A stretch of 64,000 nt of DNA from assembly GCF_005491705.1 (NCBI RefSeq), contig NZ_CP028092.1, positions 1,984,001 through 2,048,000 on the forward strand. The letters run 5' to 3'. Position numbers and translations under genes: made by a program. The stretch is from Pontibacter sp. SGAir0037. GTDB taxonomy: Bacteria > Bacteroidota > Bacteroidia > Cytophagales > Hymenobacteraceae. The number at the start of each line of letters is the position of its first letter. Positions within the stretch are counted from its first letter, which is position 1. This document shows, one piece after another, positions 5,918-21,138 of the stretch. The notes under the pieces were generated by a model that worked only from the letters and a program-made list of their open reading frames with translations, was not told the origin of the DNA and did no database searches.

Positions 5918-6290
5918 ATCGTTGCTCAACAGCAGCCTCTCAAACAGCTGGCTGTTTACCTGCCTTTCCAATTGGCGGGCGGACCAGTTATTTTTAGCTG
6001 CTTCGGCTATATAAAATTCGTGATTATCTTCATTTTCAATGCCTTCAAGAATTTTATAATGTGTCCAGCTGAATTGTGTACACAGTGCGAACACAATTGA
6101 GATAGTACGGTAAAAATGTCCATACCAGTGCAGATGCCGCTTCGAAAAGCCACTGCCAAACTGTGGCTGCAACGCTTCGGCCAATTATTGTATCAGGAAG
6201 GCTCCGTAAGCTGCCCGGTCTTCGCCATGCTGCTCTTCTTCGAAAATCTCCTTCCCAATATGCCAATACATGAGCACCCGCTCCGTGAAA
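5918..6290 (-). pseudogene. Decayed YhcG/DUF1016-type nuclease N-terminal domain
   Basis: Two leftward frames together rebuild the N-terminal domain of the YhcG (DUF1016/PDDEXK_nuc) family. One frame near 6200-6290 gives ERVLMYWHIGKEIFEEE and QHGEDRAAYGAFLIQ. A second, shifted frame gives AEALQPQFGSGFSKRHLHWY, then FSWTHYKILEGIENED and NWSARQLERQVNSQLFERLL. At least one frameshift separates them, and homology stops after LLLSND at about 5918 with no nuclease domain following. The 5' end runs into the IS3-derived repeat, so the gene was probably broken by that insertion. Confidence 0.7.
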
Positions 6291-6539
6291 TTACGATGCT
6301 TTACTGGAGACTTTATTCAGGCAGCGCAGCGACAGCTTGGACGTATAAGAGGTTTTCATATCGGCAAGGAGTCAGGTAGCCAAGCGCTTAACAGCTCCTT
6401 TTCCGGTTATAGAAACCCTCAATGTACTCAAACACGGCCTGCCGAGCCTCCTGCCAGGTGGCAAATTGGTGGTGGTAAGGCCATCTCTGTCTTCATCGTC
6501 TTCTTAAATCTGCTTAACAAAGGTCTCCAGTCAAAGGTA
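6272..6539. repeat. 268-bp direct repeat, copy A: IS3-family orfB C-terminal remnant at left edge of RiPP island
   Basis: This block is repeated in the same orientation at 19122-19389 with about 8 mismatches by eye and no indels. Its minus strand encodes the C-terminus of an IS3-type OrfB (EARQAVFEYIEGFYNRKR, then ALGYLTP in the same frame after a TAA). The preceding FKKTMKTEM is in another frame, so the sequence is decayed. The first ~18 bp belong to the DUF1016 gene next door (TERVL codons), not to the IS. No terminal inverted repeats or complete transposase were found. Confidence 0.85.
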
Positions 6540-6607
6540 ATAACTACAATGTTGGTTGTCTAAGTTTGGGGTACGGATGACAATCCGGAGCGCCGCTCCC
6601 ATCTCGC

Positions 6608-7900
6608 TTACCTGTTTGTGAGCAAGTCCCGAGCGCTGTTGAAGATCCTTCCTAGTAGGCTCCGCTCCTCGGTCACGACTTCTGCCTGGGCCACCAGGCC
6701 TACCTGCAGCTTCACTTCCTTGCCGTACGTTGTCTTCGTTGGCAGCGTCACGGTCGCCGTATAGGCGGTATCGCCGGAGACCACGTCCGAAATATAGGTG
6801 ATCTTTCCCCGCAGCAGCCCGAACTCCTGCGTTGGGTAGGCCTTGAGCCGGATGAGGACGTCCTGGCCCGTCCTGACCTTGCCAAAGGCCTGCTGACTTA
6901 ACGTCAGCTCACCGAAAGGTGCTGCATCCTGTCGTGCATTGGTTATGTAAAGGACAGGCTTGTTCAGCGGCAACCACTGGTTTTGCCGCAGTACCTGGTG
7001 AAATACCACCCTCCCGTCCTGCTCTGCTACCAGCACATGCTCCTTCTTCCACTCGTCCAGCTCACTTTTAAACTTTTGCAGCTTCGCTAAAAAGACAGCG
7101 CGTTGCGCTACCACCTCCTGCGCTACCTGCTGGAGTTCCCACTGCTTTTGCGCCTGGACAATGCTGTTGTTGATCAGGGAGGACCGGGTGCTATTGAGCG
7201 GCAATTTGATGCTGACAAACTTACTCTCCTGTAGTTGGAACTCCTGTAGGGAAATAACTTTCGCCTCGGCCAGTACCTGATGCCGGGCAAACTCCTCCTG
7301 GGCGATAGCATATGCTTCCTGGTGAATCTGCTGCTGCTCGGCCAGTTGCAGTTCCAATTGCTTCAGGGAGTGTATTTCATTCCGGAGCGCCTGCTCCTTT
7401 CCTGCATAGATGCCGCCCGGTGTATACATCAGGAACTGCAGGTAAGCGAGGTAAAACTCCTGCAAAGCAGGCTGCAGTTCACCATAGTGCTTCCTGGCAT
7501 TGAACCTGGCCTGCTGGGCAAGGCGGTCGTTCCCGGCAAGCACCTCCTTCTGCAGCGAGTCGATCCGGCTGCTCAGCTGCAACACTTCCCGGTGGTCCGC
7601 GTTGCTTTCCAGGTACCCCAAAACCTGGCCGCTGCTGACCGCTTGCTCTTCTTTCACCAGCAGCCTTGCAAGCCTGCCTGCTTTGCGCGCCAATACTTCC
7701 TGTGGACGGTAATCTGCATCAACTTTTAGGTTCGCCGGAATGCTGTCGGGTGACTTGATACTGCCGGCAAGCAGCAGCAGCAGCAGCAAAATACCAAAGA
7801 AGAGGCTGATGCCCCAGCGTACTAGCCACCCGGGTACCGCCCCGATGATCTCCTGTACTTCTTCACTGTGTTCCTGCGTAGCAGGTTGGTGTAAAGGCAT
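6608..7900 (-). CDS. HlyD-family membrane fusion protein of the RiPP exporter
   Basis: The 430-aa periplasmic adaptor has one N-terminal membrane anchor (SLFFGILLLLLLLAGSI, residues about 33-50). A biotinyl-lipoyl-like half motif follows (RKAGRLARLLVKEEQAVSSG), then a long coiled coil of about 200 residues (repeated Gln/Glu/Leu) and a C-terminal beta-barrel (VRTGQDVLIRLKAYPTQEFG). This is the usual partner of peptidase-containing ABC exporters. It lies 76 bp downstream of the ABC gene and is the last gene of the leftward RiPP operon. It bridges the inner-membrane exporter to an outer-membrane channel that is not encoded here. Confidence 0.9.
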   Translation of the reverse strand: MPLHQPATQEHSEEVQEIIGAVPGWLVRWGISLFFGILLLLLLLAGSIKSPDSIPANLKVDADYRPQEVLARKAGRLARLLVKEEQAVSSGQVLGYLESNADHREVLQLSSRIDSLQKEVLAGNDRLAQQARFNARKHYGELQPALQEFYLAYLQFLMYTPGGIYAGKEQALRNEIHSLKQLELQLAEQQQIHQEAYAIAQEEFARHQVLAEAKVISLQEFQLQESKFVSIKLPLNSTRSSLINNSIVQAQKQWELQQVAQEVVAQRAVFLAKLQKFKSELDEWKKEHVLVAEQDGRVVFHQVLRQNQWLPLNKPVLYITNARQDAAPFGELTLSQQAFGKVRTGQDVLIRLKAYPTQEFGLLRGKITYISDVVSGDTAYTATVTLPTKTTYGKEVKLQVGLVAQAEVVTEERSLLGRIFNSARDLLTNR

Positions 7901-7976
7901 AAGTCTGAATTAATAACGTTCTTGTTGTATTGTCCTGACAGCGGCGGGTGGACCATAACACCCTTCCCGGATCCGC

Positions 7977-10163
7977 CTAAAACCCCAGTTCCAACTGGTT
8001 GCGGACCAGCTCAAAGTAGGCTCCCTCACGGGCCACCAAGCTCTCATGTGTCCCCACCTCGGTGATCTCGCCGTTGTGCAGTACCACGATCTGGTCAGCG
8101 TTTTTCACCGTACTCAGCCGGTGCGCCACCACCACCACCGTACGTCCCTGGAAAAAGGCGTCCAGGTGATCCATGATCACCCGCTCGTTATTGGCATCCA
8201 GGGCATTGGTCGCCTCATCAAAAAAGATATAAGTTGGGTTCTTGTACACCGCCCGGGCAATGAGGATGCGTTGCTTTTGTCCCTGGCTGATGCCCTTGCC
8301 CTCCGCACCGATCTTAGTCTGGATACCCATAGGGAGCCCCAGCACAAAATCCTGTATGTTAGCCACCTTAATGGCCTGCCAGAGCCGCTGTAGATCGGGC
8401 CGCTCATCGGCCACCGCGATGTTGTTGGCAATGGTGTCCGAAAATATGAACCCGTCCTGCATCACCGTTCCGCAACTCCTGCGCCATTTGCTTGGTTTTA
8501 GATGCTCCAGCCAGGTCGCACCTACCTTGATCTCCCCGTTCTGGGGACGGTAGAAGCCCAGCAGCAGCTTCAGCAGGGTCGTTTTACCACTCCCGCTCAT
8601 CCCGACGATGGCCGTGGTTTTCCCAGCCGGGATGGTCAGGTTGATGTTCCGCAGCACGGCCTCGTTCCCGGCACCCGGGTATTTGAAGCTCACGTCTTGC
8701 AACTGGATGGTCTTGTCTTCGGGGAGCTCAGGCTGGTACGCCCGGTGGACCGGTTCCTCGTTTTCCAGGGCATGGAGCTCGTTGAGACGCTCCATGCTGA
8801 TCCTGGCATCCTGCGAAGCTTGGATAAAGCTCAGCAGCTGCTCCACCGGGCTGTTGAGTTGCCCCAGGATGTACTGCACGGCCATCATGGCCCCCAAGCT
8901 CATCTCACCAGAAACAACGGCCTTCGCCACTAGGAAGATAATGAATATATTCTTGCTCTCGTTGATGATAAAGGCGCCCGCCTGCTGGTACTGCCCCAGC
9001 GACAGGCTCCTGACACTGTGCCGGAAGAGCCCGGCCTGGATGCGCTCCCAGTCCCAGCGCTTCTGCCGCTCACAGCCGTTCAGCTTGATCTCCTGCATGC
9101 CGTTGATGAGCTGCATCAGGGCGCTCTGGTTCTGCGCCGCCACCGTAAAGCGCCGATAGTCGAGCTCTTTTCGCTTTCGCAGAAAGGCCACGATCCATAG
9201 CGTGTACAGCACACTCGCCCCAAAAAACACCAGAAAGACGGTGGCATCGTAATAGGCCAGCACAAAGGAGAACATCACTAGGTTGAACAGGGAGAAAAAA
9301 ACGGTCAGCGACTGGTTCGTCAGAAAAGCCTCGATCCGCTTCTGGTCGCTCATGCGCTGCATGATATCCCCGGTGAGCTTGGTGTCGAAAAAACTGATGG
9401 GCAACTGCATGAGCTTGGTCAGGAAGTCCGACAGAATGGAAACGTTCAAACGCGTGCTGATGTGGAGCAGTAGCCAGGACCGGATAAAATCCACGCTCGT
9501 ACGGCCGATCAGCAACATGAACTGGGCGATCAGCACCAGGTAAATGAAGCTCAGGTTCTGGGTAGTGATGCCCACGTCCACCACCGACTGCATTAGGAAA
9601 GGCAGGAGCAGCTGCAGGACGATGCCGATCAACAGGCCCAGCGTCAACTGCACCAGAAGCTTTTTGTACGGGGCCAGGTAGCTGAGAAAGGTACCGAAGC
9701 TGGCTAGGTTTTCCGCCGCCTCGTCTTCCTGCTCGTAGAAGGCCGGCGCCGGCTCTAGTAGCAACCCGACACCGTACGAACTGCCGTTGTTCTTATAGCT
9801 GTAAAAGTGCTCGCAGAACTCATCGAAGGCATAGTGGATGATCCCTTTGCCCGGGTCGGCCACGGTGCATTTCCCGCGCTTTATCCTGTAGAGCACCACG
9901 AAATGATTTTGATCCCAGTGCAAGATGAGCGGCATCCTAGCTTCCCGGAGCTGTTCCAGGTTTAGCCGGGCCCCACTTACGCGCAGCCCGATCTTCTCGG
10001 CGGCCTCCGCTATGCCCAGCAGGGACACGCCCTCTCGGGTAATCTCCATCAGTTCCCGCAACCGGCCGATGCTGCGGCTCCGGCCAAAGTATCGGGCCAC
10101 CATCCGCAGGCAGGTGGGGCCGCAGTCCATCTGGTCCGGTTGTTTATAAAAAGGGTATTTCAA
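7977..10163 (-). CDS. Peptidase C39-containing ABC exporter (PCAT/bacteriocin type)
   Basis: This 728-aa protein cleaves GG-leader peptides and exports them. Residues 1-140 are a C39 peptidase with catalytic Cys (DQMDCGPTCLRM), His (HWDQNHFVVLY) and Asp (VADPGKG). Six membrane segments follow at about 165-450. The nucleotide-binding domain has Walker A GMSGSGKTT, signature ISQGQKQR, Walker B YIFFDEATNALD and an H-loop VVVAHRLS. The frame begins with a TTG codon; the C39 domain needs that start and no upstream ATG is available in frame. It follows the TlpA gene by 20 bp. Its presence matches the GG leader of the precursor at 11417-11623. Confidence 0.93.
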   Translation of the reverse strand: MKYPFYKQPDQMDCGPTCLRMVARYFGRSRSIGRLRELMEITREGVSLLGIAEAAEKIGLRVSGARLNLEQLREARMPLILHWDQNHFVVLYRIKRGKCTVADPGKGIIHYAFDEFCEHFYSYKNNGSSYGVGLLLEPAPAFYEQEDEAAENLASFGTFLSYLAPYKKLLVQLTLGLLIGIVLQLLLPFLMQSVVDVGITTQNLSFIYLVLIAQFMLLIGRTSVDFIRSWLLLHISTRLNVSILSDFLTKLMQLPISFFDTKLTGDIMQRMSDQKRIEAFLTNQSLTVFFSLFNLVMFSFVLAYYDATVFLVFFGASVLYTLWIVAFLRKRKELDYRRFTVAAQNQSALMQLINGMQEIKLNGCERQKRWDWERIQAGLFRHSVRSLSLGQYQQAGAFIINESKNIFIIFLVAKAVVSGEMSLGAMMAVQYILGQLNSPVEQLLSFIQASQDARISMERLNELHALENEEPVHRAYQPELPEDKTIQLQDVSFKYPGAGNEAVLRNINLTIPAGKTTAIVGMSGSGKTTLLKLLLGFYRPQNGEIKVGATWLEHLKPSKWRRSCGTVMQDGFIFSDTIANNIAVADERPDLQRLWQAIKVANIQDFVLGLPMGIQTKIGAEGKGISQGQKQRILIARAVYKNPTYIFFDEATNALDANNERVIMDHLDAFFQGRTVVVVAHRLSTVKNADQIVVLHNGEITEVGTHESLVAREGAYFELVRNQLELGF

Positions 10164-10183
10164 GTTAATGCCGTTAGGGGTGA

Positions 10184-11332
10184 CTACTTTCTTTCCTTGC
10201 TAACCTGTGCCCCGTACAGGTCCAGTAGCTTGTCCCTGAGCTGTTGCCCTTTGAGGTTTTTCCCGATGATCGTCCCGTCCGGGCCGATCAGGTAGTTGAT
10301 GGGGATTTCATGTATGCCGTACCTGGCTATGGCCAGGTTGCTTTTACCCTCGATGGCAATGACCTGCTGCCAAGTCAGTTTGTCCTTCTGGACTGCCTTT
10401 AGCCAGGCCTCCCGGTTTGTGTCGATGGATACCGACAGAATGGTAAACCCATTGTCCGCGAATTCCTCGTACAGCGCCCGTAACCTGGGATGCTCCGCCC
10501 GGCAGGGGCCGCACCAACTTGCCCAGAAGTCCAGCAGCCAGTACCCCTTGTTGGCAGTCGTACGGAACATAGTCCCGGCAGAATCCGGCAGCGAGAAATG
10601 AATCACGGGGCTTCCTTCCTTCAGGTTCTGGCTGGCCCAGAGTTTTGCCTTCAGCTCACCGTGCAAGGGCACTGCCTTGTACACCCGCGGCATGTTGTCC
10701 AGGAGCGCCATCACTTGGTCTGTGGGCATTACCTTTTCCCCGTAGATGTCCAGGTAGTACAGGGCCGCATAGGAGGCAGGGTACTGGCCTACCAGCCGGT
10801 TGATTGTTCCGTGCAGGTACGCCTGTATCGAGTCCAGTTTAAGCTTGGAGGCCTTCAACAACTGAATTTCCTGCCGCTTACCGTATTCCTTCATTTCGTT
10901 GATGACAGCTTCCTCGCTTTTTTTGATCGCCGCGACCTCCTGGCTGAACACACCCAGGACCTCCATGTCGCGGGACCCGCTGACGCGGGCCTCGTGGATG
11001 GCACGAGCCTCGCCGTCCACCCGTAGCTGGCTCCCGTCGAGGTAAATAATTTTAAAGCTAGGCTGTCCTTTGATAAAAAGGGAATAAGGGCCAGGGGTTG
11101 CCACCTTGCCCGAGAGCCTGAAGCCATTGTTCCTGAGCTTGACAGAATCAATAGGTTGCTTGCTGTCGTTGGGGATGTAAGTGCCTTTCGCCAGGTACAC
11201 CGTTTCCCCGCTCCCCGCAGCCAATTTCCCGGTTATCTTATATGGGTACAGGGCTTGTGCCACTGCACAAAGCGGGAACAACAGGAGACCCAGCACAAGG
11301 CAGCTGAGCGAAGGCAGGTATTTTGCAGTCAT
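10184..11332 (-). CDS. TlpA-type thioredoxin lipoprotein-like protein with DUF4369-like N-terminal domain
   Basis: The 382-aa exported protein was given the start MTAKYLPSLSC because a signal peptide follows it directly (CLVLGLLLFPLCAVAQA). The upstream 17 residues of open frame carry no signal. A DUF4369-like beta domain (YKITGKLAAGSGETVYLAKG) is followed by a helical linker and a C-terminal TlpA/AhpC-fold domain with the active site WASWCGPCRAEHPR. It is predicted to work as a periplasmic thiol reductant or isomerase. In the RiPP operon it sits directly after the Cys-rich precursor, so control of precursor thiols or disulfides is plausible. Confidence 0.85.
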   Translation of the reverse strand: MTAKYLPSLSCLVLGLLLFPLCAVAQALYPYKITGKLAAGSGETVYLAKGTYIPNDSKQPIDSVKLRNNGFRLSGKVATPGPYSLFIKGQPSFKIIYLDGSQLRVDGEARAIHEARVSGSRDMEVLGVFSQEVAAIKKSEEAVINEMKEYGKRQEIQLLKASKLKLDSIQAYLHGTINRLVGQYPASYAALYYLDIYGEKVMPTDQVMALLDNMPRVYKAVPLHGELKAKLWASQNLKEGSPVIHFSLPDSAGTMFRTTANKGYWLLDFWASWCGPCRAEHPRLRALYEEFADNGFTILSVSIDTNREAWLKAVQKDKLTWQQVIAIEGKSNLAIARYGIHEIPINYLIGPDGTIIGKNLKGQQLRDKLLDLYGAQVSKERK

Positions 11333-11416
11333 AGAAGCATTGGTTTTTGATTTAAAAGGAAAGTAACCCAGCCACACCCCCACTGGATGCGCCTGGGTTA
11401 TTGGCGGGCTTTCGCC

Positions 11417-11623
11417 CTAGCAGCTCAGGGAGGCCTCTACAGACACCTCCTCGGTCAAGGCACAGTTACAGGTCACGGTGCCGCCGCTCGAAGAGCAGCT
11501 TCCTTCCGAGCAGCTGCAGCTTTTGTTGCCGCCACCCGGACACGTTACACTGACATTGCATCCGTTAAAGCCGCCAACGATATTCTTCATTTCGGCTCTG
11601 CTAAGTAAATTCTGTGACTTCAT
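11417..11623 (-). CDS. Cys-rich GG-leader RiPP precursor peptide
   Basis: The 68-aa peptide has an 18-aa leader (MKSQNLLSRAEMKNIVGG) of the Bacteroidota double-glycine natural-product precursor type. The core is 50 aa with eight Cys (core positions 4, 10, 18, 20, 25, 34, 36, 50) and fifteen Ser/Thr. Motifs such as SCSC, TCNC and SSSGGTVTC are typical of dehydration/thioether substrates. It lies between the VKOR/thioredoxin fusion and the TlpA gene, upstream of a C39 exporter, with a LanB-type dehydratase in the same island. The final product could carry lanthionines, disulfides or both; sequence alone does not decide this. A 22-bp hairpin lies 9 nt before the start. Confidence 0.85.
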   Translation of the reverse strand: MKSQNLLSRAEMKNIVGGFNGCNVSVTCPGGGNKSCSCSEGSCSSSGGTVTCNCALTEEVSVEASLSC

Positions 11624-11632
11624 GGTATAACC

Positions 11633-11654
11633 TGCTTTTATACATCAAAAAGCA
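11633..11654 (-). promoter_or_regulatory. Leader hairpin of RiPP precursor, identical to the one at 47884-47905
   Basis: On either strand the block is TGCTTTT, 8 nt, AAAAGCA, a perfect 7-bp stem, placed 9 nt before the precursor ATG. The same 22 bp occur upstream of the DUF6520-type gene. In both places a TAAAGTTTTT stretch lies just upstream in the transcribed orientation. It could be an mRNA hairpin controlling translation or a regulator binding site. Confidence 0.65.
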
Positions 11655-11694
11655 GTAAAAACTTTACTTTTATAACTAAATTAACTTCTGTTCT

Positions 11695-11715
11695 GCTACC
11701 GTTTTGGCAGGTAGC
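11695..11715 (-). terminator. Short hairpin between VKOR-fusion gene and precursor gene
   Basis: GCTACC and GGTAGC form a 6-bp stem with a 9-nt loop, 99 bp downstream of the 541-aa gene and 72 bp upstream of the precursor start. It may be a partial terminator or attenuator that separates precursor transcription from the maturation genes. No U-run is evident, so this is weak. Confidence 0.25.
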
Positions 11716-11813
11716 ACACCGTGTCCGGCTACCCCTGGGGTACCAGGACTGCTGCAGGTCAAGGCATAAGAAAGGCTTCTTGGTTAAGGTGAATGATGTC
11801 CTCTAGACTAAGC

Positions 11814-13439
11814 TTATTCCACTTCGCTGATAAGGTAGCGCAGGTCCTCTATCGCATAGGTCTCCGGTACTTTGTAACCGTTGATGAAAAAGGTCGGCGT
11901 AGCCTCCACGTCCGCAATATTCAACCACTGGGCCAGCTTTTCGTCCTGGTACCGGATCGGCGCCTTATGCAGTTGATGGTCCTTTATCCAGTTTTCAGGG
12001 GATAATTTGCCTTTGCTATACCAATCGTGCAGCGCGGCTCTGAGCTTTTCCCTGTCCCCGATCCCCGAGATCCACTCCACAAACTGCCGACGCTTGTCCC
12101 CTTCCTGGGACTGATGCGCAAAAATGGTGGTGACTTTAAAATCCGTTCCCTGTTCCAACCAGGCATCTACCGTGGCATGGGCTTCCGCACAGGGGCCACA
12201 GTAGGGGTTCGAAACAAACACCAGCTCATGGATCGCCGCACTGTTCCCTAAGGTGAATACCTTTAGGTCCTCCGGAATGTGGACCTTCGGCTGCTTTCTG
12301 ATCAAGGCGTGGAAAAAGCCCGGATTGGACTTGAGCTTTTTGTACTCCTGCCTGTAATGCTGGCGCTCCTTGAAGAACTTGACAAATTCTCGGAACGCAA
12401 ACCAGAGCATGGCCGGCAGGACGAAGGCAATGGCCTGGTGCAAGCCGGGCAGAAGGGCCTGTGGCTGGGAACTCGTGTACAACCAGGTAGCTGCCAGCAG
12501 GTTCAACAGCACGATGCCATGCACCAGCATGCACAGCTTACACCATTGCCTGAGGACAAAGGCCTGCAGGTAAATCGCGTAAAGTGAAAACACCGGGGCC
12601 ACCACCGCCAGCAGCATGTAAAAAGCAGGACCCTCAAAGAAAAGCAGTAGGGACGCCGTCCCTGCGAAAAAGAGTAACCCGCCCTCGGCCATGCTCAGCC
12701 ACGGGGTAAGCTGGGAGGATCTGCTGCCCAGCACGGTATCGCACCCTTCCTGCGTATTGCTTTGGCACAACTGTTTCACCAGCACATTGTCCTTATTTAG
12801 GTGCTGCAGGACCAAAACCCAGGACACCCCTACTCCGGCCAAACTTAAGAGCAGGCACAGCAGCTGCGCTGCGGAAAAATAGGCCGTGTTCCAGCCAAGC
12901 AGGTAGCAGCTCAGCAGCAGGGTGCTCCCTGTAACAACCGGCTGGAAATAAGCAGGGTACAGGCCCTTCTCCCCCGAGGAGCGTACCTTCTTCCCGAAGA
13001 CGGAGGGATCCAGTTCCAGCACCACCCCGTCCCATACCCTGGCAAAGTAGTCCAGGGTGTAGTGGCGGGTATCGCCGCTCTCAGTTATAATTTTTACTTT
13101 ACCGCCGGTTAACTGTTCTACCACGGCAAACTGCCCGTTCTGAACGGTTAGGTAAACTAAAACGGGGCGGGAGAAATTTTCAACGAAGGCCTGGGCCTCC
13201 ACTTTGAAGGCACTGTGCGTAATTCCCACGCCATGCAGCACGTCGCTGATACTCAGAAGACTTGGAAAAAAGGGATGCTCCGCCAGCTTTTGTTCGAGTA
13301 CCTCCTGTTTGACGTTGATTTTGTGGCCCCGCAGCAGCCTGCTGATGACAAAACTCACAGGCTGGTGCACATGAAGCGGATTCAGTTGGGGAAGTGCGGT
13401 CGACAGATTCATACGATATAATAAATGCCCTAGGTTCAT
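11814..13439 (-). CDS. C39-like / VKOR / thioredoxin three-domain membrane protein
   Basis: This 541-aa protein has three parts. Residues about 25-150 resemble a C39 peptidase fold (RGHKINVKQEVLEQKLAEHP) but lack the catalytic Cys motif. Residues about 165-350 form a vitamin K epoxide reductase-like membrane domain with a Cys pair in the periplasmic loop (C225, C233) and the quinone-site pair W-C300-K-L-C303. The C-terminus from about 385 is a DsbA-like thioredoxin fold with NPYCGPC (C414/C417). It should oxidise thiols outside the membrane and pass electrons to quinone. The dead C39-like domain may bind the precursor leader. It lies between the two precursor candidates. Confidence 0.88.
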   Translation of the reverse strand: MNLGHLLYRMNLSTALPQLNPLHVHQPVSFVISRLLRGHKINVKQEVLEQKLAEHPFFPSLLSISDVLHGVGITHSAFKVEAQAFVENFSRPVLVYLTVQNGQFAVVEQLTGGKVKIITESGDTRHYTLDYFARVWDGVVLELDPSVFGKKVRSSGEKGLYPAYFQPVVTGSTLLLSCYLLGWNTAYFSAAQLLCLLLSLAGVGVSWVLVLQHLNKDNVLVKQLCQSNTQEGCDTVLGSRSSQLTPWLSMAEGGLLFFAGTASLLLFFEGPAFYMLLAVVAPVFSLYAIYLQAFVLRQWCKLCMLVHGIVLLNLLAATWLYTSSQPQALLPGLHQAIAFVLPAMLWFAFREFVKFFKERQHYRQEYKKLKSNPGFFHALIRKQPKVHIPEDLKVFTLGNSAAIHELVFVSNPYCGPCAEAHATVDAWLEQGTDFKVTTIFAHQSQEGDKRRQFVEWISGIGDREKLRAALHDWYSKGKLSPENWIKDHQLHKAPIRYQDEKLAQWLNIADVEATPTFFINGYKVPETYAIEDLRYLISEVE

Positions 13440-13475
13440 ATACTTTCCTACTCATGCCCGGAAACCGGAGTGGCC

Positions 13476-13631
13476 TTACCCTTTTGCCGGCACAACGGCC
13501 AGGATTGTTTCCCCCGTCACGGTGATCGTCAGCGTCGGGTCCCAAGGCTGCTGGCCCTGGCGTATTTTTTTCTGTGCAAACTTGAAAAGCGTGGTCGTCT
13601 GCAAGTGCATTTTCTTCAGGTGTGTCTTCAT
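13476..13631 (-). CDS. Candidate second precursor peptide, Thr-rich and Cys-free
   Basis: The 51-aa frame starts at MKTHLKKMHLQTTTLFKFAQ; a longer frame to 13775 would overlap the kinase gene. The N-terminal part is basic and leader-like. The C-terminal part has alternating Thr (PTLTITVTGET) with no Cys. Short basic proteins with Thr-rich tails accompany LanB enzymes in Bacteroidota, as I recall, which is the reason for the call. It lies 36 bp upstream of the VKOR-fusion gene and opposite the kinase promoter. With no Cys, a dehydrated product could hold dehydrobutyrines but no intramolecular lanthionine. It could instead be a small regulatory protein. Confidence 0.5.
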   Translation of the reverse strand: MKTHLKKMHLQTTTLFKFAQKKIRQGQQPWDPTLTITVTGETILAVVPAKG

Positions 13632-13756
13632 CAGATTTAGAATAGTTTTAAGAAATCTATTAAACGCCGGCAGACAAGGGAAAAAAATTACACGAACATG
13701 ACTTTTCTGTAGATAAAAAACCTTGCGGCTTTCAAAAATAATCCGTTGGTTTAACC

Positions 13757-14824
13757 ATGCATTCCCGACCGACATACCGCATCCTGCTGCTGCATGCCCT
13801 GGCTTGGACGGCCTTCATCGTTTATGAGATGTCCATGGCGCTCGTCCTCAACCCGACAAGCAACCAGTGGTGGGAATATGCAAGCTATTACCTGGTGAAC
13901 ATTTCCCTGTTCTACCTCAATGCGCATGTGGTGCTTCATTATGTCCTGGAAAGATCTCAACGCCCCCTGCTGCTGCTGGTACTGATCCCCTTTGAACTGC
14001 TGCTCTATACCCTGGTGGAGTATGGCCTGGAACACCTGCTCAACGTCTTTCGCGCTGTTCCCAAACCGATCTTCGTGGACAGCTTCTTTGTCCTGAAGTA
14101 TATCTGGCGCGGGGTTTATTTCCTGGGCTTCAGCACCGCCTACTGGTTCTTCCTGCACACCCTCGCCAACAACAGGCGGATCAACCTGCTGCAGGTACAG
14201 CGCCTGGAGGCCGAGAAAGCACGCTCCGAACTGGAAAGGAACCTAGTCCGGTCCCAGAACGCTTTCCTGCAGGCGCAGATCAGCCCGCACCTGCTCTTCA
14301 ATACCCTCAACTTCATCTATAACGCGGTACAGGATGTCTCTGAGAAAGCCTCCCACGGGGTCCTGCTCCTCTCTGAGGTCATGCACTATGCGCTGACCAG
14401 GGTACACGAGGACGGCAAGACCGACCTGAGCAGCGAGGTGGAACACATCAAAAAGTACGTGGCCCTGAACCAACTGCGCTTCAGTTACCCGCTCTACCTG
14501 AACATGCACTACAACGGCCCGTTCAGACAACACCGCATCCCGCCCCTCATCCTGCTGACCTTTGTCGAGAACACCTTCAAGCATGGGGACCTGACCGATG
14601 CCAGCCTCCCGGCGGCAATCCACATCGGCAGCCACGATTGCCGCCTTGAATTCAGCTCTGTGAACAAGAAAAAAAGGCACCTGAACGGGAGAGGATACGG
14701 GATTGGGATCCAGAACGCGGAGACAAGACTCCGGGACTTTTACGGCGAACAGGGATTCACCCTGCACATCAAGGAGGACGAGCAACTTTACACCCTAACG
14801 CTTAAAATAGATATGACCCAATGA
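13757..14824 (+). CDS. LytS/YehU-type sensor histidine kinase
   Basis: This 355-aa membrane kinase has four hydrophobic segments in the first 140 residues, then a short coiled coil. A His_kinase domain follows with the phospho-acceptor in QAQISPHLLFNTLNFIYNAV. An ATPase N-box (PPLILLTFVENTFKHGD) and a degenerate G-box (GRGYGIGIQNAETRL) complete it. It overlaps the LytTR regulator gene by 4 bp (ATGA), so the two form one unit. The unit is divergent from the second precursor candidate and sits in the middle of the RiPP island. Control of the cluster, perhaps in response to the product, is inferred from position. Confidence 0.9.
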   Translation: MHSRPTYRILLLHALAWTAFIVYEMSMALVLNPTSNQWWEYASYYLVNISLFYLNAHVVLHYVLERSQRPLLLLVLIPFELLLYTLVEYGLEHLLNVFRAVPKPIFVDSFFVLKYIWRGVYFLGFSTAYWFFLHTLANNRRINLLQVQRLEAEKARSELERNLVRSQNAFLQAQISPHLLFNTLNFIYNAVQDVSEKASHGVLLLSEVMHYALTRVHEDGKTDLSSEVEHIKKYVALNQLRFSYPLYLNMHYNGPFRQHRIPPLILLTFVENTFKHGDLTDASLPAAIHIGSHDCRLEFSSVNKKKRHLNGRGYGIGIQNAETRLRDFYGEQGFTLHIKEDEQLYTLTLKIDMTQ

Positions 14825-15558
14825 AATGTTTTGTTGTTGACGACGAGGCGCACGCCCTCCAGGTACTGGCACGCTATATTGAAAAAACCCCCGGCCTTGA
14901 ACTCACAGGCGTGCAGGAAAATCCCCTGGAAGCCCTCCGGCTCATCACGGAAGGGATTGCAACACCGGACATTACCTTTATCGATGTGGATATGCCCCAG
15001 CTCTCCGGGGTGGAGCTTGCAGCCCTGCTTAACTCCTATACCACCGTCGTGTTCACCACGGCCTATTCCGACTACGCGTACCAGGCCTATGAAAAGAATG
15101 CCGTGGACTACCTGCTCAAGCCCATCACCTATGAGCGATTCCTGAAAGCCGTCGGCAAAGTGCGGGACATGTTCGCCGGCAGGCAGCCCGTTCACGCCGA
15201 GCCGGCAGGCAAGGCCGACTACTTCTTTGTCAAGAGCGAGGTAAAGGGCAAGATTGTGCGGGTGGACATTGACGAGATCGAGTTCGTGGAGGCATGGCAG
15301 AATTACATCAAAATCCACACCGGTAGCGGCACCCTGACCACCTACCTAACCATGAAAGAGGTAGAGGAACACCTCCCCATGCACCGGTTCTCCAGGATCC
15401 ACAAATCCTTTATCGTGCACAACGACAAGGTCCGCGCCCTTGAAGGCAACCAGGTCATTCTGAGCAACAAGAAAGTCCTCAGCTTGGGCGCCAGCTACCG
15501 CGCCGACTTTCTCGAGGCCATCACGGCCCGCCTGCTCAAAAGCAAACGGACGCCCTAA
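14821..15558 (+). CDS. LytTR-type response regulator
   Basis: The 245-aa protein has an N-terminal receiver domain (MKCFVVDDEAHALQVLARYI) with phospho-acceptor Asp in TFIDVDMPQLSG, the switch Thr in VVFTTAYSDYA and Lys in DYLLKPITYERF. The C-terminal LytTR DNA-binding domain starts near residue 140 (YFFVKSEVKGKIVRV) and has the MHRFSRIHKSFIVH signature. It is the partner of the upstream kinase, with an ATGA overlap. The stop codon overlaps that of the convergent LanB gene by 3 bp. Confidence 0.92.
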   Translation: MKCFVVDDEAHALQVLARYIEKTPGLELTGVQENPLEALRLITEGIATPDITFIDVDMPQLSGVELAALLNSYTTVVFTTAYSDYAYQAYEKNAVDYLLKPITYERFLKAVGKVRDMFAGRQPVHAEPAGKADYFFVKSEVKGKIVRVDIDEIEFVEAWQNYIKIHTGSGTLTTYLTMKEVEEHLPMHRFSRIHKSFIVHNDKVRALEGNQVILSNKKVLSLGASYRADFLEAITARLLKSKRTP

Positions 15559-18500
15559 GGCCTGGCGCGTGCCAGCTGCGACCTGTAGTGCCTCCACAGG
15601 CAATAATACAGAACCAGTTCCTGCTCCCGGGGCTGGTCCACAAACACCCGGTTCAGGTGCATGTGCACCAGGTCACTGACCAGCTGGGGAACATCTGCCG
15701 ACCGAGTGCGCCTGGCCTTTTCTGCCAGGGCAATAAGGGCTGCGTGAAAGCCCCCCTGCCGCTGCTTCCTGGTACCCTTGCGGCTTTCCGTTGGGCCAGG
15801 GTTGTCTGGCATCAGCCCGGGCACCAGGCTGAGCTCCCGGTACTTCCGGCTCAGCTGCTCCTTCAAGCCCTTGTCCCCCTTGAATTCCTCAAAGAAGCTT
15901 TCAAACAGCTGGGAGAAAAGTGTGGTTTTCTCCTCCAGGCTAAACCCGAAGGCAGCCGCGGTCTCCTCTGCCCCGGCGAAAGCAGTTCTGTAGGGAGCAT
16001 GGTCGGCTTCCGCTGGCGCAGCTTTGCCAATGGCAGCGGCAACCAGGGCACTGCTGGCGCAGAACACCTTTTCCACTGCCTCCATAAGGGCAGGACCATA
16101 GCGCTCCAGTTCCCGCTCATAGGTGGCGACCTGTACATCGGCGACCGTATCATCCTCCACGTAGGGGCTTAACTTCTGGCGAATCGCCTGTAACACCTTT
16201 CCCGTTTCTGTTTCGGGAACGGCCAGCCGGATCCGCAGGTGGTATCCCGGGTCCCGGTAACGCACAAAGAACCACTCCCATACTGCTCCGCTTCGCACCA
16301 GCCGGTTGATGAGCGGCAAGAACGCCCTCGTCAACAGCTCATTGGACCTAACGGGATGGCAGTACACTTTCAGGTACAGCCACTCCTGACCTGGCAGCGT
16401 CTTCCGCTTCACCGCTCTCCCTACCTGTTGGCTCATGTCGGGTAGGGGCAGCGCCTTGTATACCTCCTGCTCCTGGTACAGGCTCGCCACAAACTGGTGT
16501 ATATACGGATTTCCCGTCTCGTCTGTGACCGTTGGGGTTTCCTGCCCCGCGAAAGGATATTCCCGGACCAAGAGGAACTTCTTGTGCCTGATCGCCCGTG
16601 CGAACAGGCCCAGGTCCGCCTCCTGCTCCAGGTCGATGACCAGTTGGTGGTCGTGCTCTGTCAGGGCAATATGCCGGGGCCAGCCCTGCCGCGCGATGGC
16701 CGTACGCAGCCGCTCCGGGTCCTGTACAGCCGCCTGCAGCGCCCCCAGTTCTTCCGTGCCCAAATGCCAGGAGGCCAGCTGCAGGATGGCCGACTTGTAA
16801 ACCACCCGTGGATACTGCCGCATTCCGGGAAAGAACTGCTGCAGGTCCAGAGTGAAGTCCGCCTCGATGCCCTGGTACTGCAGGTCGCACAGAAAACGGT
16901 AAACAGCTAGGTCCTCCCGTGAGAAGTTGTAGGCAGAGCTTAGGCGCGGCACGACCACCTGCTGCAGGTTTTTGGAAAAGAGGACGACCTGGTCCGCCTG
17001 TATACTGACCCACAGGTCCGCCAAGGGCAGCTGCTGTTGCCGGTCGAGCGTGGAATGGACCAGCACCGGAATTTCATACGCACGGAGAGCCTTCCGGTGC
17101 TCGATGTTCGCCACATGGATGTCCCCGAGGTGGGCGATCTCGGCAAAGACCACGCCGGGGTTCGCTGCTTCCTCCTTTTGCACCAGTTCCCGGGCCATGG
17201 CCTCCACCTCCTCGTGAAGCGGGGTAAACCGGCCCAGCAAGGCTGTAGCGCTCACGCCCCCTGCCTGTTCCAGCACGACCTGGTTGTCCAGCACCCGGAA
17301 AAGCACCGAAATGCTGGGCGGCCTGAGGTCTGTCGCCTTCCGCTTCGGTAGCTGCTGCAGTTCCTCCTCGGTCAGCACCAGGGGCGCTGCCGCGTTGCCG
17401 GTAGTCCGCCACTTTTCCATCAGCATGGCATGGGCCGGAGACCAGTCAAAAGGCGTGGCCGCCGCCTCCCCTCCCAGGCACCTCAGGCTGATACCTTCCA
17501 GCAGCTTTGAGACGGCATGGCCATCGGTCAGGTCCTGGTAGCCTATTCCTGCCTCCGGGTCAAGCGCCAGGAGGAGTGGGACGGTCCTGTTTTCGAACTT
17601 TCGCTTGAACGCCAGGCTAAAGTCCTGCAGTCCCTGCGGCCGGCGCGAAGGCAGCAATGCCCATAGGCCTTGCAGGCCGTCGAGGATGTTTTGCTGGTGC
17701 ACGGCATCCACTCCCCCCGTAACCGATCCCAGGTCCAGGTTAACATACAGCCCTGGCTTGCCGGTGTCGGCCCCCACCAGTTTGTCACCAAGCCGGAGCA
17801 GGGACACGCTCCCTTCGCAGATCCCTTCCCGGGACAAGGCCTCCAGCTCTGCCAGCAGAGACGCTAGGCGCTCTGTTCCGGCACTGTCCCGGCCTTCCAG
17901 GTGGCACACGTCCAGCAAGCGGGGCAGGTACTCCGGCCCGGTGCTATTTGGTGCGAGCGTGGACAGGAGCAGCTGCTGCGCCACCAACTGGTCGAAAAAC
18001 TCCTCGCACACCGCGGTCGGAGCCTGAGCCTGCGTCCTTTCCCGGATCAGGCCCACTACCTCCTCCCTGAGCCTGTCCTCTTTACAGAAATGCAGGATGT
18101 CGCGCAGGAAAGCCTGGTAGGGCACCGTATCGATTGAAAAACGGAGGGCCACCTCCCCCACACCCGGTTGCTGGCACGTAAGGAACCGATATGTGCTTCC
18201 AGCCTTGTACAACGACCCGTTTGTCCGGTACGTGTGGCAGTCAGCCAGTTCAGCGTCCAGAATCTTTGCAGCATTCTTTAAGGTCTCGCTGAAGCTCAGG
18301 CTGGCTTTTATCTTGTACTTGTCCTTGTGCATGATAAGCGGCCGACCGGGGGATGCAGCCCAGTGTGCAAGAGCAAAACCGGAGAACAGCCCGAAAGGCG
18401 TAGGCCGGAAACACATCCTGTTGCGGTACTTGGATAGCGCATGCAGGGCGCCCGGGGATAGCAAGGGCACCTGAAAGCTTCTTTTTTTCAGCTCCTGGTA

Positions 18501-18635
18501 AAGGAAAGGACTGGCCAGGAAAATGGCCGCCCTGAAATGCGGTTCCGTCAGCAGCTCCTGGAGTTCAGTTTCAAGGTAGGTGGAGACGGGGTAAGCGGGT
18601 GTGCGCAATAGTAACTGCGAGTAGAATCGATACAT
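15555..18635 (-). CDS. LanB-type lantibiotic dehydratase, full length with fused SpaB_C elimination domain
   Basis: This 1026-aa protein matches class I lanthipeptide dehydratases in length and order. The N-terminal glutamylation domain opens with YPVSTYLETELQELLTEP, LSKYRNRMCFRPTPFGLFSG and later FENRTVPLLLALDPEAGIGY. The C-terminal 'thiopeptide-type' (SpaB_C) elimination domain follows (WLYLKVYCHPVRSNELL, FVRYRDPGYHLRIRL, and ATYERELERYGP). It uses Glu-tRNA to dehydrate Ser/Thr in a leader-bound precursor. It is transcribed toward the rest of the leftward cluster but separated from it by the oppositely oriented kinase/LytTR pair. No LanC cyclase gene is visible in the window. Confidence 0.92.
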   Translation of the reverse strand: MYRFYSQLLLRTPAYPVSTYLETELQELLTEPHFRAAIFLASPFLYQELKKRSFQVPLLSPGALHALSKYRNRMCFRPTPFGLFSGFALAHWAASPGRPLIMHKDKYKIKASLSFSETLKNAAKILDAELADCHTYRTNGSLYKAGSTYRFLTCQQPGVGEVALRFSIDTVPYQAFLRDILHFCKEDRLREEVVGLIRERTQAQAPTAVCEEFFDQLVAQQLLLSTLAPNSTGPEYLPRLLDVCHLEGRDSAGTERLASLLAELEALSREGICEGSVSLLRLGDKLVGADTGKPGLYVNLDLGSVTGGVDAVHQQNILDGLQGLWALLPSRRPQGLQDFSLAFKRKFENRTVPLLLALDPEAGIGYQDLTDGHAVSKLLEGISLRCLGGEAAATPFDWSPAHAMLMEKWRTTGNAAAPLVLTEEELQQLPKRKATDLRPPSISVLFRVLDNQVVLEQAGGVSATALLGRFTPLHEEVEAMARELVQKEEAANPGVVFAEIAHLGDIHVANIEHRKALRAYEIPVLVHSTLDRQQQLPLADLWVSIQADQVVLFSKNLQQVVVPRLSSAYNFSREDLAVYRFLCDLQYQGIEADFTLDLQQFFPGMRQYPRVVYKSAILQLASWHLGTEELGALQAAVQDPERLRTAIARQGWPRHIALTEHDHQLVIDLEQEADLGLFARAIRHKKFLLVREYPFAGQETPTVTDETGNPYIHQFVASLYQEQEVYKALPLPDMSQQVGRAVKRKTLPGQEWLYLKVYCHPVRSNELLTRAFLPLINRLVRSGAVWEWFFVRYRDPGYHLRIRLAVPETETGKVLQAIRQKLSPYVEDDTVADVQVATYERELERYGPALMEAVEKVFCASSALVAAAIGKAAPAEADHAPYRTAFAGAEETAAAFGFSLEEKTTLFSQLFESFFEEFKGDKGLKEQLSRKYRELSLVPGLMPDNPGPTESRKGTRKQRQGGFHAALIALAEKARRTRSADVPQLVSDLVHMHLNRVFVDQPREQELVLYYCLWRHYRSQLARARP

Positions 18636-18731: not shown

Positions 18732-19054
18732 TCAGCAGCACTTGTCACCTGCCTCCTGCCATAAACTCACCAGGTTGAACATCTCCCGCATCCGGGAGCG
18801 GACCCGCCTGCCATACATTTTTTCCAGTTCACTGCTGCCCAGGTTGGTGGTGGCGTGCCTGAGGAGCTTTTCCTGCACAAATTAATTTTAGCGGCTGAGA
18901 AAGATATCTCCCATGACATTGCAGGTGTTGCCATAGTACTGCAGGCTGCGCTCCGTACTAGGTTGTGGTAAGTACCGCCTTTTGCAATTATAAGGTTGCC
19001 ATAGTACTGCAGGCTGCGCTCCGTACCCAGATCATCAAATAAAAGAGCCGACAC
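18732..19054 (-). pseudogene. Decayed DnaC/IstB-like ATPase C-terminus
   Basis: Shifted leftward frames carry ALLFDDLGTERSLQYYGN, NTCNVMGDIFLSR, then in another frame RHATTNLGSSELEKMYGRR and VRSRMREMFNLVSLW before a TGA at 18732. These are the Walker B, sensor I and arginine-finger regions of a DnaC-like helicase-loader ATPase. An internal 32-bp duplication, a stop after FLSR and a frameshift show it is dead. It is probably phage- or element-derived debris at the right edge of the RiPP island. Confidence 0.6.
18927..19026. repeat. Two identical 32-bp direct repeats inside the ATPase remnant
   Basis: The 32-bp block at 18927-18958 (starts GTTGCCATAGTACTGC) recurs exactly at 18995-19026, a period of 68 bp. 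It encodes the ERSLQYYGN region of the ATPase remnant. A small tandem duplication within decaying sequence is the simplest explanation. Confidence 0.85.
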
Positions 19055-19121: not shown

Positions 19122-19389
19122 GAGCACCCGCTCCGTGAAATTACGATGCTTTACTGGAGACTTTATTCAGGCAGCGCAGCGACAGCTTGGACGTATAAGA
19201 GGTTTTCATATCAGCAAGGAGTTAGGTAGCCAAGCGCTTAACGCCTCCTTTTCCGGTTATAGAAACCCTCAATGTACTCAAACACGGCCTGCCGAGCCTC
19301 CTGCCTGGTGGCAAATTGGTGGTGGTAAGGCTATCTCTGTCTTCATCGTCTTCTTAAATCTGCCTAACAAAGGTCTCCAATCAAAGGTA
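19122..19389. repeat. 268-bp direct repeat, copy B: IS3-family orfB remnant at right edge of RiPP island
   Basis: This is a near-identical, same-orientation copy of 6272-6539 and shares its decay features. The TAA replaces the same codon after NRKR, and FKKTMKTEM is in the same other frame. Copy B has one additional stop after LTPC. It also carries the same ~18 bp of DUF1016 coding sequence at its left end, although no DUF1016 gene follows here. The two copies therefore come from one already decayed ancestor. Confidence 0.85.
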
Positions 19390-19497
19390 GCAATTCCACT
19401 ACGGATCTGCTCCAGTGCTTATGAAAGAAAGCCAAGTCACTGGTCAATAACCTGTAACCAAGCTTTCAATAGAGTGGACTAAAATAATCCTGTAGTG

Positions 19498-21138
19498 CTA
19501 TACCCTGTCCTCTGGATAAGCATAGGCAAGGTTGTAAAGTTTAACATTGGGAATGTAGCTCCTCGTGATAGTGACTGGTTCTTGGTTATACCCTGCCTTG
19601 GGATACAATGTCACAGTCACTTTTACGACATATTTATTATTCACGTAGGGGTAACGGATGTAGGGTACACCTAAAATCTGTCCGCTTGGCATGCTTGGCC
19701 AAGTGGATGGGTAATCTGGCTCGCCACCATAAATCTCCTCCCCAAATATTTTCCAAAACTCGTTTGCATCATCCTTGTAAATCAAGTTACCACTTGGTGG
19801 AGGTGTACCATAGCCCTGCTCAGGGCCGTTCCAGTTTAATTCACCTTGAAATTTGGCATAGTAAACCAAGTCCACCTTAGTCTCATAGCGGTCTATTTCT
19901 GAAAGAATGTCCGGATTAATAACAATATTAATGGAAGACTGATCAACATATACATCCCTATTGTAAACATACTGGTAACTATTTTGCCCCACCAAAACAG
20001 CCTGAGCTGCCTCTTTTACAACTGGTGTGGTAGCAAGATTCCAAACCCCCAATCTTTTATTGTAATGTGGCAAGTTGTAGGTACTCGACATCTGCGTCAT
20101 GGGAACATACAAATTTGCGATTGGCACCACATTAGATCCGCCCGTTCCCGTTATCTGGCCTGACAGGGATATTGTGCCATTCGTTTTAAACTCTAGGCTC
20201 TGCTTCGTATTAGTTGTGTTGCTTTGCTTTCCTATAAAAGAACCAAACACCAGGTTTATCCCTTCTTTCACTAGCGTGGATACACCTCCTGAAGCAATAT
20301 CAGGCAAAACGCTTGCCGCCAGTTTAATAATCTTGCTGGCATTGTCTTTTGTACCAACATTTTCTTTTATCCACGAGCCGGCTGACTTTCCTGCTGCTTT
20401 GGCAGCATTATTAGTGAAATTTTGTGCCTGATTTGTGGTGTTGGTAGTTATGATAGCCCCCTCAGAGTTTGAGTTAAACCCGCCACTGACGGTAAAGTCA
20501 GAAATATTCTTGTTATAAGTTGCCACACCCATTCTAATACTCTTGTTCAGGTTGCTGTCGTAAGTAATCTCCGTATCAAAAGCGTTCCATCCAAAGGCAA
20601 AAGCTTTGGTTAAAGGTTCCATAGAAATATTGGTAGAGATTGCTATAGGGTTGTTAACTAAATAGTCCATCGGTTTAGCAAAGTACCCTACGTTATTTAG
20701 CAGCGCATGGGTGCCTGGCATGTTAAGAGCCCACATGCCATCATTGGAGTTACCGGAAGGGTTATGGCTAACATAGTAGTAGCTTCTAACCACCCCCGTA
20801 AACTTATTGTAAAAAATCAGGTAGTTCTTACCAGGGTCGCCATCCTCCGAACAGAAGTTATACATCAATTCCCAGCCGTCGGCCTTTGTATACTCTTGCA
20901 AGATGAAATCAGGCAATTGAGTGGGGGCACCGCTGTACCAGGGCAAAGTGTACAGGGTTCCGTCGTCTCCGAATCTAAGTTGGGGAGCATTCTCCCAGTC
21001 AAAGTAAATCGATTCTTTCTTAGTCAACTCATGTTTTAATAAATCAACACCTTGCTCAGTGGGTATCATCTCTTCCTGCTCACAGGAAAACATTAAGAAC
21101 ATGAGCAAAGCCACTCCATATTTTCTCTTTGTCATCAT
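19498..21138 (-). CDS. Large lipoprotein of unknown function
   Basis: The 546-aa protein starts at MMTKRKYGVALLMFLMFSC; the Cys at the end of this segment is a lipobox, so it should be anchored in the outer or inner membrane. The mature part begins EQEEMIPTEQG and is Asn-, Tyr- and Gly-rich, with no domain I recognise. A Gly/Ser/Asn/Thr-rich central segment (VSGGFNSNSEGAIITTNTT) and an amphipathic region (AAKAAGKSAGSWIKENVG) stand out. The latter resembles a glycine-zipper-like helix of proteins that insert in membranes, which is only suggestive. It is a single gene between the RiPP island and IS982 debris, with an AT-rich upstream region. Confidence 0.75.
   Translation of the reverse strand: MMTKRKYGVALLMFLMFSCEQEEMIPTEQGVDLLKHELTKKESIYFDWENAPQLRFGDDGTLYTLPWYSGAPTQLPDFILQEYTKADGWELMYNFCSEDGDPGKNYLIFYNKFTGVVRSYYYVSHNPSGNSNDGMWALNMPGTHALLNNVGYFAKPMDYLVNNPIAISTNISMEPLTKAFAFGWNAFDTEITYDSNLNKSIRMGVATYNKNISDFTVSGGFNSNSEGAIITTNTTNQAQNFTNNAAKAAGKSAGSWIKENVGTKDNASKIIKLAASVLPDIASGGVSTLVKEGINLVFGSFIGKQSNTTNTKQSLEFKTNGTISLSGQITGTGGSNVVPIANLYVPMTQMSSTYNLPHYNKRLGVWNLATTPVVKEAAQAVLVGQNSYQYVYNRDVYVDQSSINIVINPDILSEIDRYETKVDLVYYAKFQGELNWNGPEQGYGTPPPSGNLIYKDDANEFWKIFGEEIYGGEPDYPSTWPSMPSGQILGVPYIRYPYVNNKYVVKVTVTLYPKAGYNQEPVTITRSYIPNVKLYNLAYAYPEDRV

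Follow-up and report, generated by a model that had tools for sequence, protein, structure and literature searches.

A cysteine-free, threonine-rich peptide as the probable substrate of a LanB dehydratase without LanC in Pontibacter

Background

LanB enzymes dehydrate serine and threonine in a tRNA-Glu-dependent reaction. The window analysed here – a stretch of 64,000 nucleotides from Pontibacter sp. SGAir0037 (contig NZ_CP028092.1) – encodes a LanB with no cyclase gene beside it, together with a cysteine-rich peptide and several thiol-redox proteins. The question raised by this locus is what the LanB modifies, and why no LanC accompanies it. A sequence-only reading of the window had taken the cysteine-rich peptide to be the precursor, and proposed that the cyclase lies elsewhere, that rings close without an enzyme, or that the product combines dehydro-residues with disulfides.

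Gene content of the locus

The ORFs named in that reading are all present, and domain search confirmed its C39 exporter, VKOR-thioredoxin fusion and TlpA protein. The features of the region are as follows.

6272..6548, plus strand: 277-nt direct repeat, left copy, flanking both proposed modules
6608..7900, minus strand: HlyD adaptor (domain search)
7977..10163, minus strand: C39 peptidase-ABC exporter (domain search)
10184..11383, minus strand: TlpA-like thiol-disulfide protein with DUF4369 (domain search)
11417..11623, minus strand: GG-leader peptide of 68 aa with 8 Cys; probably disulfide-bonded, and unlikely to be a LanB substrate
11814..13439, minus strand: C39-like/VKOR/thioredoxin fusion, beginning 36 bp past the stop of the Thr-rich peptide; part of the adjoining cassette
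13476..13631, minus strand: 51-aa Cys-free Thr-rich peptide, proposed LanB substrate, with an L..F.F leader and a DPT.T.T core (HMM matches)
13689..13717, minus strand: LytTR-like tandem half-sites (13710-13717 and 13689-13696) 21 bp apart, upstream of the Thr-rich peptide
13757..14824, plus strand: histidine kinase (PF06580), divergent from the Thr-rich peptide
14821..15558, plus strand: LytTR response regulator (PF00072 and PF04397), convergent with LanB
15555..18635, minus strand: LanB, full-length class I dehydratase of 1026 aa, in a clade linked to histidine kinases (domains, tree, model)
19122..19398, plus strand: 277-nt direct repeat, right copy (96%), flanking both proposed modules

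The cassette genes (HlyD, C39-ABC, TlpA, the VKOR fusion and the GG-leader peptide) are thus all on the minus strand. PADLOC models had no match to LanB, the histidine kinase, the response regulator or a 564-aa ORF.

The source genome encodes a single LanB, as found by genome-wide search, and no LanC: LANC_like (PF05147) had no match at E ≤ 1 across the complete genome (5.38 Mb, 2 contigs, completeness 100). This search, which the sequence-only reading had proposed as a check, bore out its description of a full LanB without a cyclase and ruled out a LanC located away from the cluster.

A LanB clade associated with histidine kinases

A scan of named genomes for LanB gave 79 loci, taken from the best 80 of 111. 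The LanBs closer to that of the window mostly had a convergent response regulator and histidine kinase, and many of the more distant ones had LanC, as detected with custom HMMs. A tree of 90 LanBs was split at its midpoint into 47 and 43 rows with an SH-aLRT of 100; it is a quick LG+G4 tree, midpoint-rooted, with a warning of long branches meeting. In the 47-row clade, which contains the window LanB, 44 rows have a histidine kinase within 2.5 kb and 2 have LanC within 1.5 kb. In the other 43 rows, 24 have LanC within 1.5 kb and no histidine kinase, 3 more are in LanC clusters, 2 are beside a histidine kinase inside LanC clusters, 4 have a histidine kinase only, and 10 have neither. The clade has records from Pontibacter, Chitinophaga, Mucilaginibacter, Pedobacter, Hufsiella, Pararcticibacter, Daejeonella and Sphingobacterium. 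The tree excludes LanB ORFs shorter than 750 aa; one further locus, L070, whose LanB is broken across two frames, was assigned to the clade from its neighbourhood.

Among 59 genomes searched, 9 of the genus – Pontibacter, according to the named records – carry this LanB, including the source; the other 8 proteins are 44-48% identical to it, and one genome (G004) has a LanB remnant. The transporter, VKOR fusion, TlpA protein and 8-Cys peptide are not conserved in the Pontibacter LanB neighbourhoods. What recurs near LanB is the histidine kinase-response regulator pair, along with a small ORF, rich in Thr and free of Cys, that lies upstream of the kinase on the opposite strand.

LanC is missing from 6 of the 9 Pontibacter genomes with this LanB (no match at E ≤ 0.01) and from 18 of 35 others with a clade LanB. 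In total, 24 of 44 such genomes, drafts and MAGs included, have no LanC, and 20 do have LanC somewhere. The 35 are what is left of 38 genomes after L069, L119 and L129, each with LanC, were set aside; L080 is not included.

A conserved Cys-free, Thr-rich peptide

In the window, the small ORF (13476-13631) lies within a longer frame between the VKOR and histidine kinase genes, and did not figure in the sequence-only reading. A small ORF upstream of the histidine kinase, on the opposite strand, is found in 45 of the 48 clade loci (the 47 tree rows and L070); in a few, the annotated start of the kinase overlaps it. Two of the three loci lacking the peptide, L055 and L069, have no histidine kinase in the locus, and in the third, L084, the contig ends within the kinase gene. 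The genome of L055, P. litorisediminis G011, has a peptide-kinase-regulator unit 12.6 kb from its LanB.

Of these 45 peptides, 38 have no cysteine, 6 have one, and 1 has two. From residue 23 to the end they are 25% threonine, with 7 cysteines in 1334 residues, and D-P-T is at least 90% conserved among 30 aligned peptides. An HMM matched the peptide at E ≤ 1e-3 in 35 of the 48 clade loci, 22 of which were seeds; 10 of the 45 peptides were assigned by place and composition. An HMM made only from peptides outside Pontibacter (14 of them) gave the window ORF as the sole match listed in a 15-kb stretch (E 2.1e-7) and ranked the peptide first in 9 of 10 Pontibacter loci, all but L055. In a whole-genome profile search the window peptide (E 3.2e-14) was the sole match in the source genome. 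All ten close pairs of peptides had a pN/pS below 1 (0.13-0.80, pooled 0.34), which indicates that the peptide is under purifying selection.

Pfam gave nothing for the window peptide, and NCBIfam had no relevant family for six Cys-free peptides of this kind. No conserved exporter or leader protease was found beside the peptide, and no conserved gene was seen downstream of it in 31 loci. Crp-like and MauE genes come after the peptide in some Pontibacter; Pfam gave nothing on three other genes downstream of it.

The peptide follows LanB across genomes. In the profile search of the 59 genomes, it was present in all 9 Pontibacter genomes that encode this LanB and in 1 of the 28 that do not (Fisher p 8e-8 over 37 genus genomes, with relatedness not corrected). 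The one exception, G017, has the peptide, kinase and regulator without any LanB. All 14 copies in the genus adjoin a histidine kinase and a response regulator – the arrangement of a peptide-pheromone two-component system, with a small peptide gene beside both – and 5 of these are at least 12 kb from LanB or in a genome without it (two in G011 and one each in G012, G021 and G017). Across the phylum the peptide is uncommon at the sensitivity used: among 395 Bacteroidota genomes drawn independently of LanB, it was found in 4 (the source, G194, G175 and G233). The peptide of G194 is identical to that of locus L068, so it is not a new case. G175 and G233, whose LanBs are outside the 90-LanB tree, have 5 and 6 tandem peptide genes between histidine kinase and response regulator, beside LanB; G233 has three further peptide-kinase-regulator units, four in all.

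A tandem repeat upstream of the peptide gene

LytTR regulators fit a site spacing near 21 bp. Of 43 regions upstream of the peptide, 12 have a tandem pair of TT.[GA]T.TA half-sites with 21-bp spacing, where 500 shuffles gave a mean of 0.13 and at most 2; the motif was drawn by eye after some regions had been viewed, and the 12 include several from close relatives. In the window the half-sites are at -65 and -86 relative to the peptide. Of six regions outside the motif design, 3 have the pair (shuffle mean 0.0035). In a last set it was present in 1 of 6, the region of G194, which has the same peptide as L068. A generic count of direct repeats in the peptide upstream regions, which predates the specific motif, was not significant (11 observed; shuffles averaged 5.0 and reached 18). 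Upstream of LanB the pair was found in none of 45 rows with a histidine kinase and no LanC, four of them outside the clade. A simple Bacteroidota promoter pattern gave nothing consistent.

The LanB enzyme

The window LanB matches PF04738 at 31-677 (312.6 bits) and PF14028 at 752-1017 (223.4 bits). With both Pfam domains on one protein, glutamylation and elimination domains are fused, and the description of a 1026-aa dehydratase with a fused elimination domain holds. This sets the protein apart from the PEARLs, which have no elimination domain, and from the split dehydratases of the thiopeptide type. In a plasmid collection, all 29 records were below 60% identity to it.

The equivalents of NisB R14, Y80, R83, R87, T89, R464, W616, R784, R786, E823, R826 and H961 are retained in the window LanB, those of R14, Y80 and W616 having been assigned by eye from alignments. 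The PF14028 region holds R801, R803, E842, R845 and H991. Substitution of NisB Y80 (Y80F) or H961 (H961A) is reported to abolish activity (PMC4341554). Two aspartates are not retained in the same way. Where NisB has D299, the aligned residue is D in 42 of the 43 rows outside the clade and mostly N, L, G or A within it, and the QxD stretch that holds it is mostly Yxx within the clade; the register of this region is uncertain, as HMMER sets NisB two residues off relative to MAFFT and MadB. The position of NisB D121 is S in the window LanB. Both matching Asp residues are given as essential in MadB (PMC12241602).

An AlphaFold model of the window LanB had a pLDDT of 84.6 and a pTM of 0.69. Its best PDB matches were MadB, MibB and NisB, over the full length at 18-20 Å rmsd, and the TbtB glutamylation domain matched at 3.6 Å. 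The good fit of a single domain and the large full-length rmsd suggest that the domain folds are right and that their arrangement either differs or is badly modelled. Among the PDB matches listed, no fold from outside the LanB family reached a similar Z across the full chain.

The cassette of the 8-Cys peptide

The GG-leader precursor of 68 aa has, by eye, 8 Cys and 15 Ser/Thr after the GG, in agreement with the sequence-only reading, and the VKOR fusion additionally has a C39-like N-terminal domain. Relatives of the fusion were found in 32 of 296 Bacteroidota genomes, including the source. Among 20 VKOR loci of other genomes, compared with the window sequence alone as query (one earlier VKOR HMM had included an off-frame row with X for stops), 16 have a C39-ABC gene, 11 HlyD, 10 a TlpA-like gene (often weak), and 1 a LanB. 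GG-leader peptides with 3-10 core cysteines are present in 15 of the 20, and the number of cysteines is even in 25 of 27 such peptides, a count from which three short ORFs (L163, L164 and L166) were left out as chance matches. As LanB is missing from 19 of the 20 loci, this type of cassette does not need LanB, and the one locus with LanB has its own LanC and precursor. At E ≤ 1e-10, the VKOR fusion is absent from all 8 other Pontibacter genomes with this LanB. The VKOR cassette as a constant partner of LanB was rejected on these two counts. On the contrary side, a LanB is encoded somewhere in 20 of the 31 other genomes with VKOR, a count without a baseline from VKOR-less genomes, and two of the listed VKOR places are within 10 kb of a LanB by coordinates (G152, which is L170, and G359).

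The window cassette, with its GG leader, C39-ABC exporter, HlyD adaptor, thiol oxidant and even number of cysteines, has the composition of a double-glycine cassette. The 8-Cys peptide is probably disulfide-bonded and not a LanB substrate, judging from these comparisons, and the earlier substrate assignment is thus probably wrong. In the co-occurrence comparisons, LanB went with the Cys-free peptide, histidine kinase and response regulator; a constant partnership with VKOR and the 8-Cys peptide was not supported.

Proposed mechanism and alternatives

On balance, the locus appears to hold two modules side by side – a Cys-free peptide modified by LanB, with a histidine kinase-response regulator pair, and a separate disulfide-peptide cassette. 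The Thr-rich peptide is most likely the LanB substrate, given its conservation and its association with this clade, and it is likely, if a little less so, that it is dehydrated. Dehydration, export, cleavage, sensing and binding by the regulator are here read from gene content. By the tRNA-Glu route, LanB would turn threonines of the short, Cys-free leader/core peptide into dehydrobutyrine. The proposed precursor has no cysteine to cyclise, so no lanthionine would form and LanC would be unnecessary, which would explain the missing cyclase. The modified peptide would most plausibly be the signal, or else a regulated product, of the adjacent kinase-LytTR pair; that it is the signal of the adjoining kinase is a possibility rated slightly short of evens. 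The LytTR regulator would bind the tandem repeat ahead of the peptide gene. The 8-Cys peptide would be made and exported via VKOR-thioredoxin, TlpA, C39-ABC and HlyD, from a cassette that is directly downstream of the Thr-rich peptide and may share its promoter.

That LanB instead dehydrates the 8-Cys peptide, with rings closing without LanC or with dehydro-residues alongside disulfides made by VKOR and TlpA, is very improbable. The two gene sets are adjacent in the window, with only 36 bp between the Thr-rich peptide and the VKOR operon, and a VKOR gene is beside a peptide-kinase-regulator unit in G233, as is a VKOR remnant in G017. This recurrence makes common regulation plausible; common chemistry is not supported. 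The fusion is missing from the other Pontibacter genomes with this LanB, LanB is in 1 of the 20 VKOR loci, and a different peptide is conserved with this LanB. The idea of an unusual RiPP type is thus likely to stand, without the combination of dehydro-residues and disulfides on the 8-Cys peptide. HK-RR pairs also control lantibiotic operons such as that of nisin, and the Cys-free peptide might be an antimicrobial or other product of LanB whose expression the pair merely controls. Tandem peptide genes, as in G175 and G233, would suit a demand for large amounts of product. However, the peptide has no conserved exporter or protease gene next to it, an immunity gene was not recognised, and peptide-kinase-regulator units are found away from LanB and several to a genome, as expected of cognate signal-sensor pairs; the antimicrobial reading is therefore considered unlikely.

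A further alternative concerns the enzyme itself. With its D299 and D121 positions changed, a clade LanB might stop short of dehydration, adding another aminoacyl group or leaving glutamyl esters. The change from QxD to Yxx runs across the clade, and PEARLs, which are LanB relatives, are described as attaching amino acids instead (PMC11962472). Yet the elimination domain is kept in the window LanB, together with the equivalents of R784, R786, E823, R826 and H961, and D121A and D299A variants of NisB are reported to keep most dehydration activity in vivo (PMC4341554), which makes this alternative improbable.

Relation to known systems

The nearest known things are linaridins, thiopeptide-type LanBs and nisin-type regulation. 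Linaridins such as cypemycin are linear, dehydrobutyrine-rich peptides with little or no thioether, and the predicted product of the Thr-rich peptide would resemble them; the dehydration enzymes of linaridins are unrelated to LanB. The TbtB/GodF-type systems have separate glutamylation and elimination enzymes and also make azoles, whereas here the two domains are fused in a single protein, and no enzyme for azoles was recognised among the genes beside LanB. Thiopeptide and goadsporin enzymes of this type are alike in dehydrating by the LanB route without LanC, as described for goadsporin (PMC5303826), and their folds are among the PDB matches.

Class I lanthipeptide systems (NisB/NisC) share the full-length LanB with glutamylation and elimination domains and the Ser/Thr core after a basic leader, and nisin-type regulation resembles the kinase-regulator pair beside the Thr-rich peptide. 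The locus has the LanB of that class, without LanC and without cysteine in the core of the proposed precursor. The family differs further in having almost no cysteine, no conserved exporter or protease, an L....F.F leader and a distinct LanB clade. Bacteroidota examples of class I lanthipeptides are described from Chryseobacterium and Runella (PMC9993889). The 8-Cys cassette is ordinary in kind, sharing its GG leader, C39-ABC, HlyD, VKOR fusion and even cysteine number with the VKOR-linked, Cys-rich double-glycine peptides of Bacteroidota, and differs from them by adjoining a peptide-kinase-regulator-LanB module.

In the open-access literature no paper was recognised on LanBs without LanC acting with Cys-free peptides, which is weak evidence of absence. 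The large lanthipeptide survey of Walker et al. is described as seeded on the LanC domain (PMC7268733), a design that could not reveal clusters lacking LanC.

Implications

Read in this way, an apparently incomplete lanthipeptide cluster becomes a coherent system in which the missing cyclase would be explained, and a family of modified signal peptides is indicated. The recurrence of the peptide, histidine kinase and regulator in several Bacteroidota groups points to modified signal peptides of a new kind. That these form an unrecognised Bacteroidota RiPP class – Cys-free, linear, Dhb-rich peptides with a dedicated, LanC-independent LanB and cognate HK-LytTR readers – is proposed tentatively, with the balance somewhat against it. 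If true, a single LanB would act for several peptide-sensor modules of the same genome, as with the four units of G233, and diverse genes nearby would come under the control of these modules, among them the disulfide-peptide cassette of the window. On this reading, the histidine that directly follows serine or threonine in the core of 15 of the 45 peptides could even permit a crosslink other than a thioether, such as the histidinobutyrine of noursin (PMC10206099). If confirmed, the system would be a LanB that naturally makes dehydro-peptides without rings, and peptide signalling in these Bacteroidota would become open to direct test.

Possible mobility of the LanB module, and its neighbourhood

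The peptide–histidine kinase–LytTR response regulator–LanB module and the neighbouring 8-Cys GG-peptide cassette lie between two direct repeats of 277 nt (6272–6548 and 19122–19398 in the window), which share 96% identity. Weaker pieces of this repeat are found at other places in the genome, the best with 74% identity. The bracketing of both modules by these repeats suggests that the island has moved, or that duplication took place at its edges. In three loci from Pontibacter relatives, the LanB of the kinase-linked clade has relaxase and coupling genes (L033 and L034) or Rep3 and ParA-like genes (L037) in its vicinity, and the LanB module can therefore be mobile.

Upstream of LanB, a short frame (18767–19054) contains the motif FDDLGTE and may be a broken DnaC-type ATPase. 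A 564-aa ORF (19498–21192) had no match in Pfam, NCBIfam or PADLOC at the cut-offs applied. Further along the window, AT-rich DNA encodes a Druantia-like defence system, adjoined by a SoFic protein.

Defence genes in the window
26359–27480: SoFic protein, adjoining the Druantia-like system
27882–38959: Druantia-like system, with the components
DruE (PADLOC, 1901 bits)
DruF/DruL-like fusion
DruK-like nuclease
cytosine methylase

Variation in other genomes

Similar Cys-free peptide genes occur in tandem, with the kinase and regulator on either side, in L205 (five genes, 7798–8773) and L207 (six genes, 10719–11661); the C-terminal half of these peptides varies least. In two Chitinophaga loci the peptide is followed by an NRPS gene, with a condensation domain in L061 (16037–17461) and condensation and adenylation domains in L063 (17563–23067).

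A second Pontibacter LanB, not of the clade, is located in clusters with the cyclase LanC (L041, L043 and L046), where a histidine kinase and a Ser/Thr-rich peptide poor in Cys lie next to it. LanB, kinase and peptide may have come together on two separate occasions.
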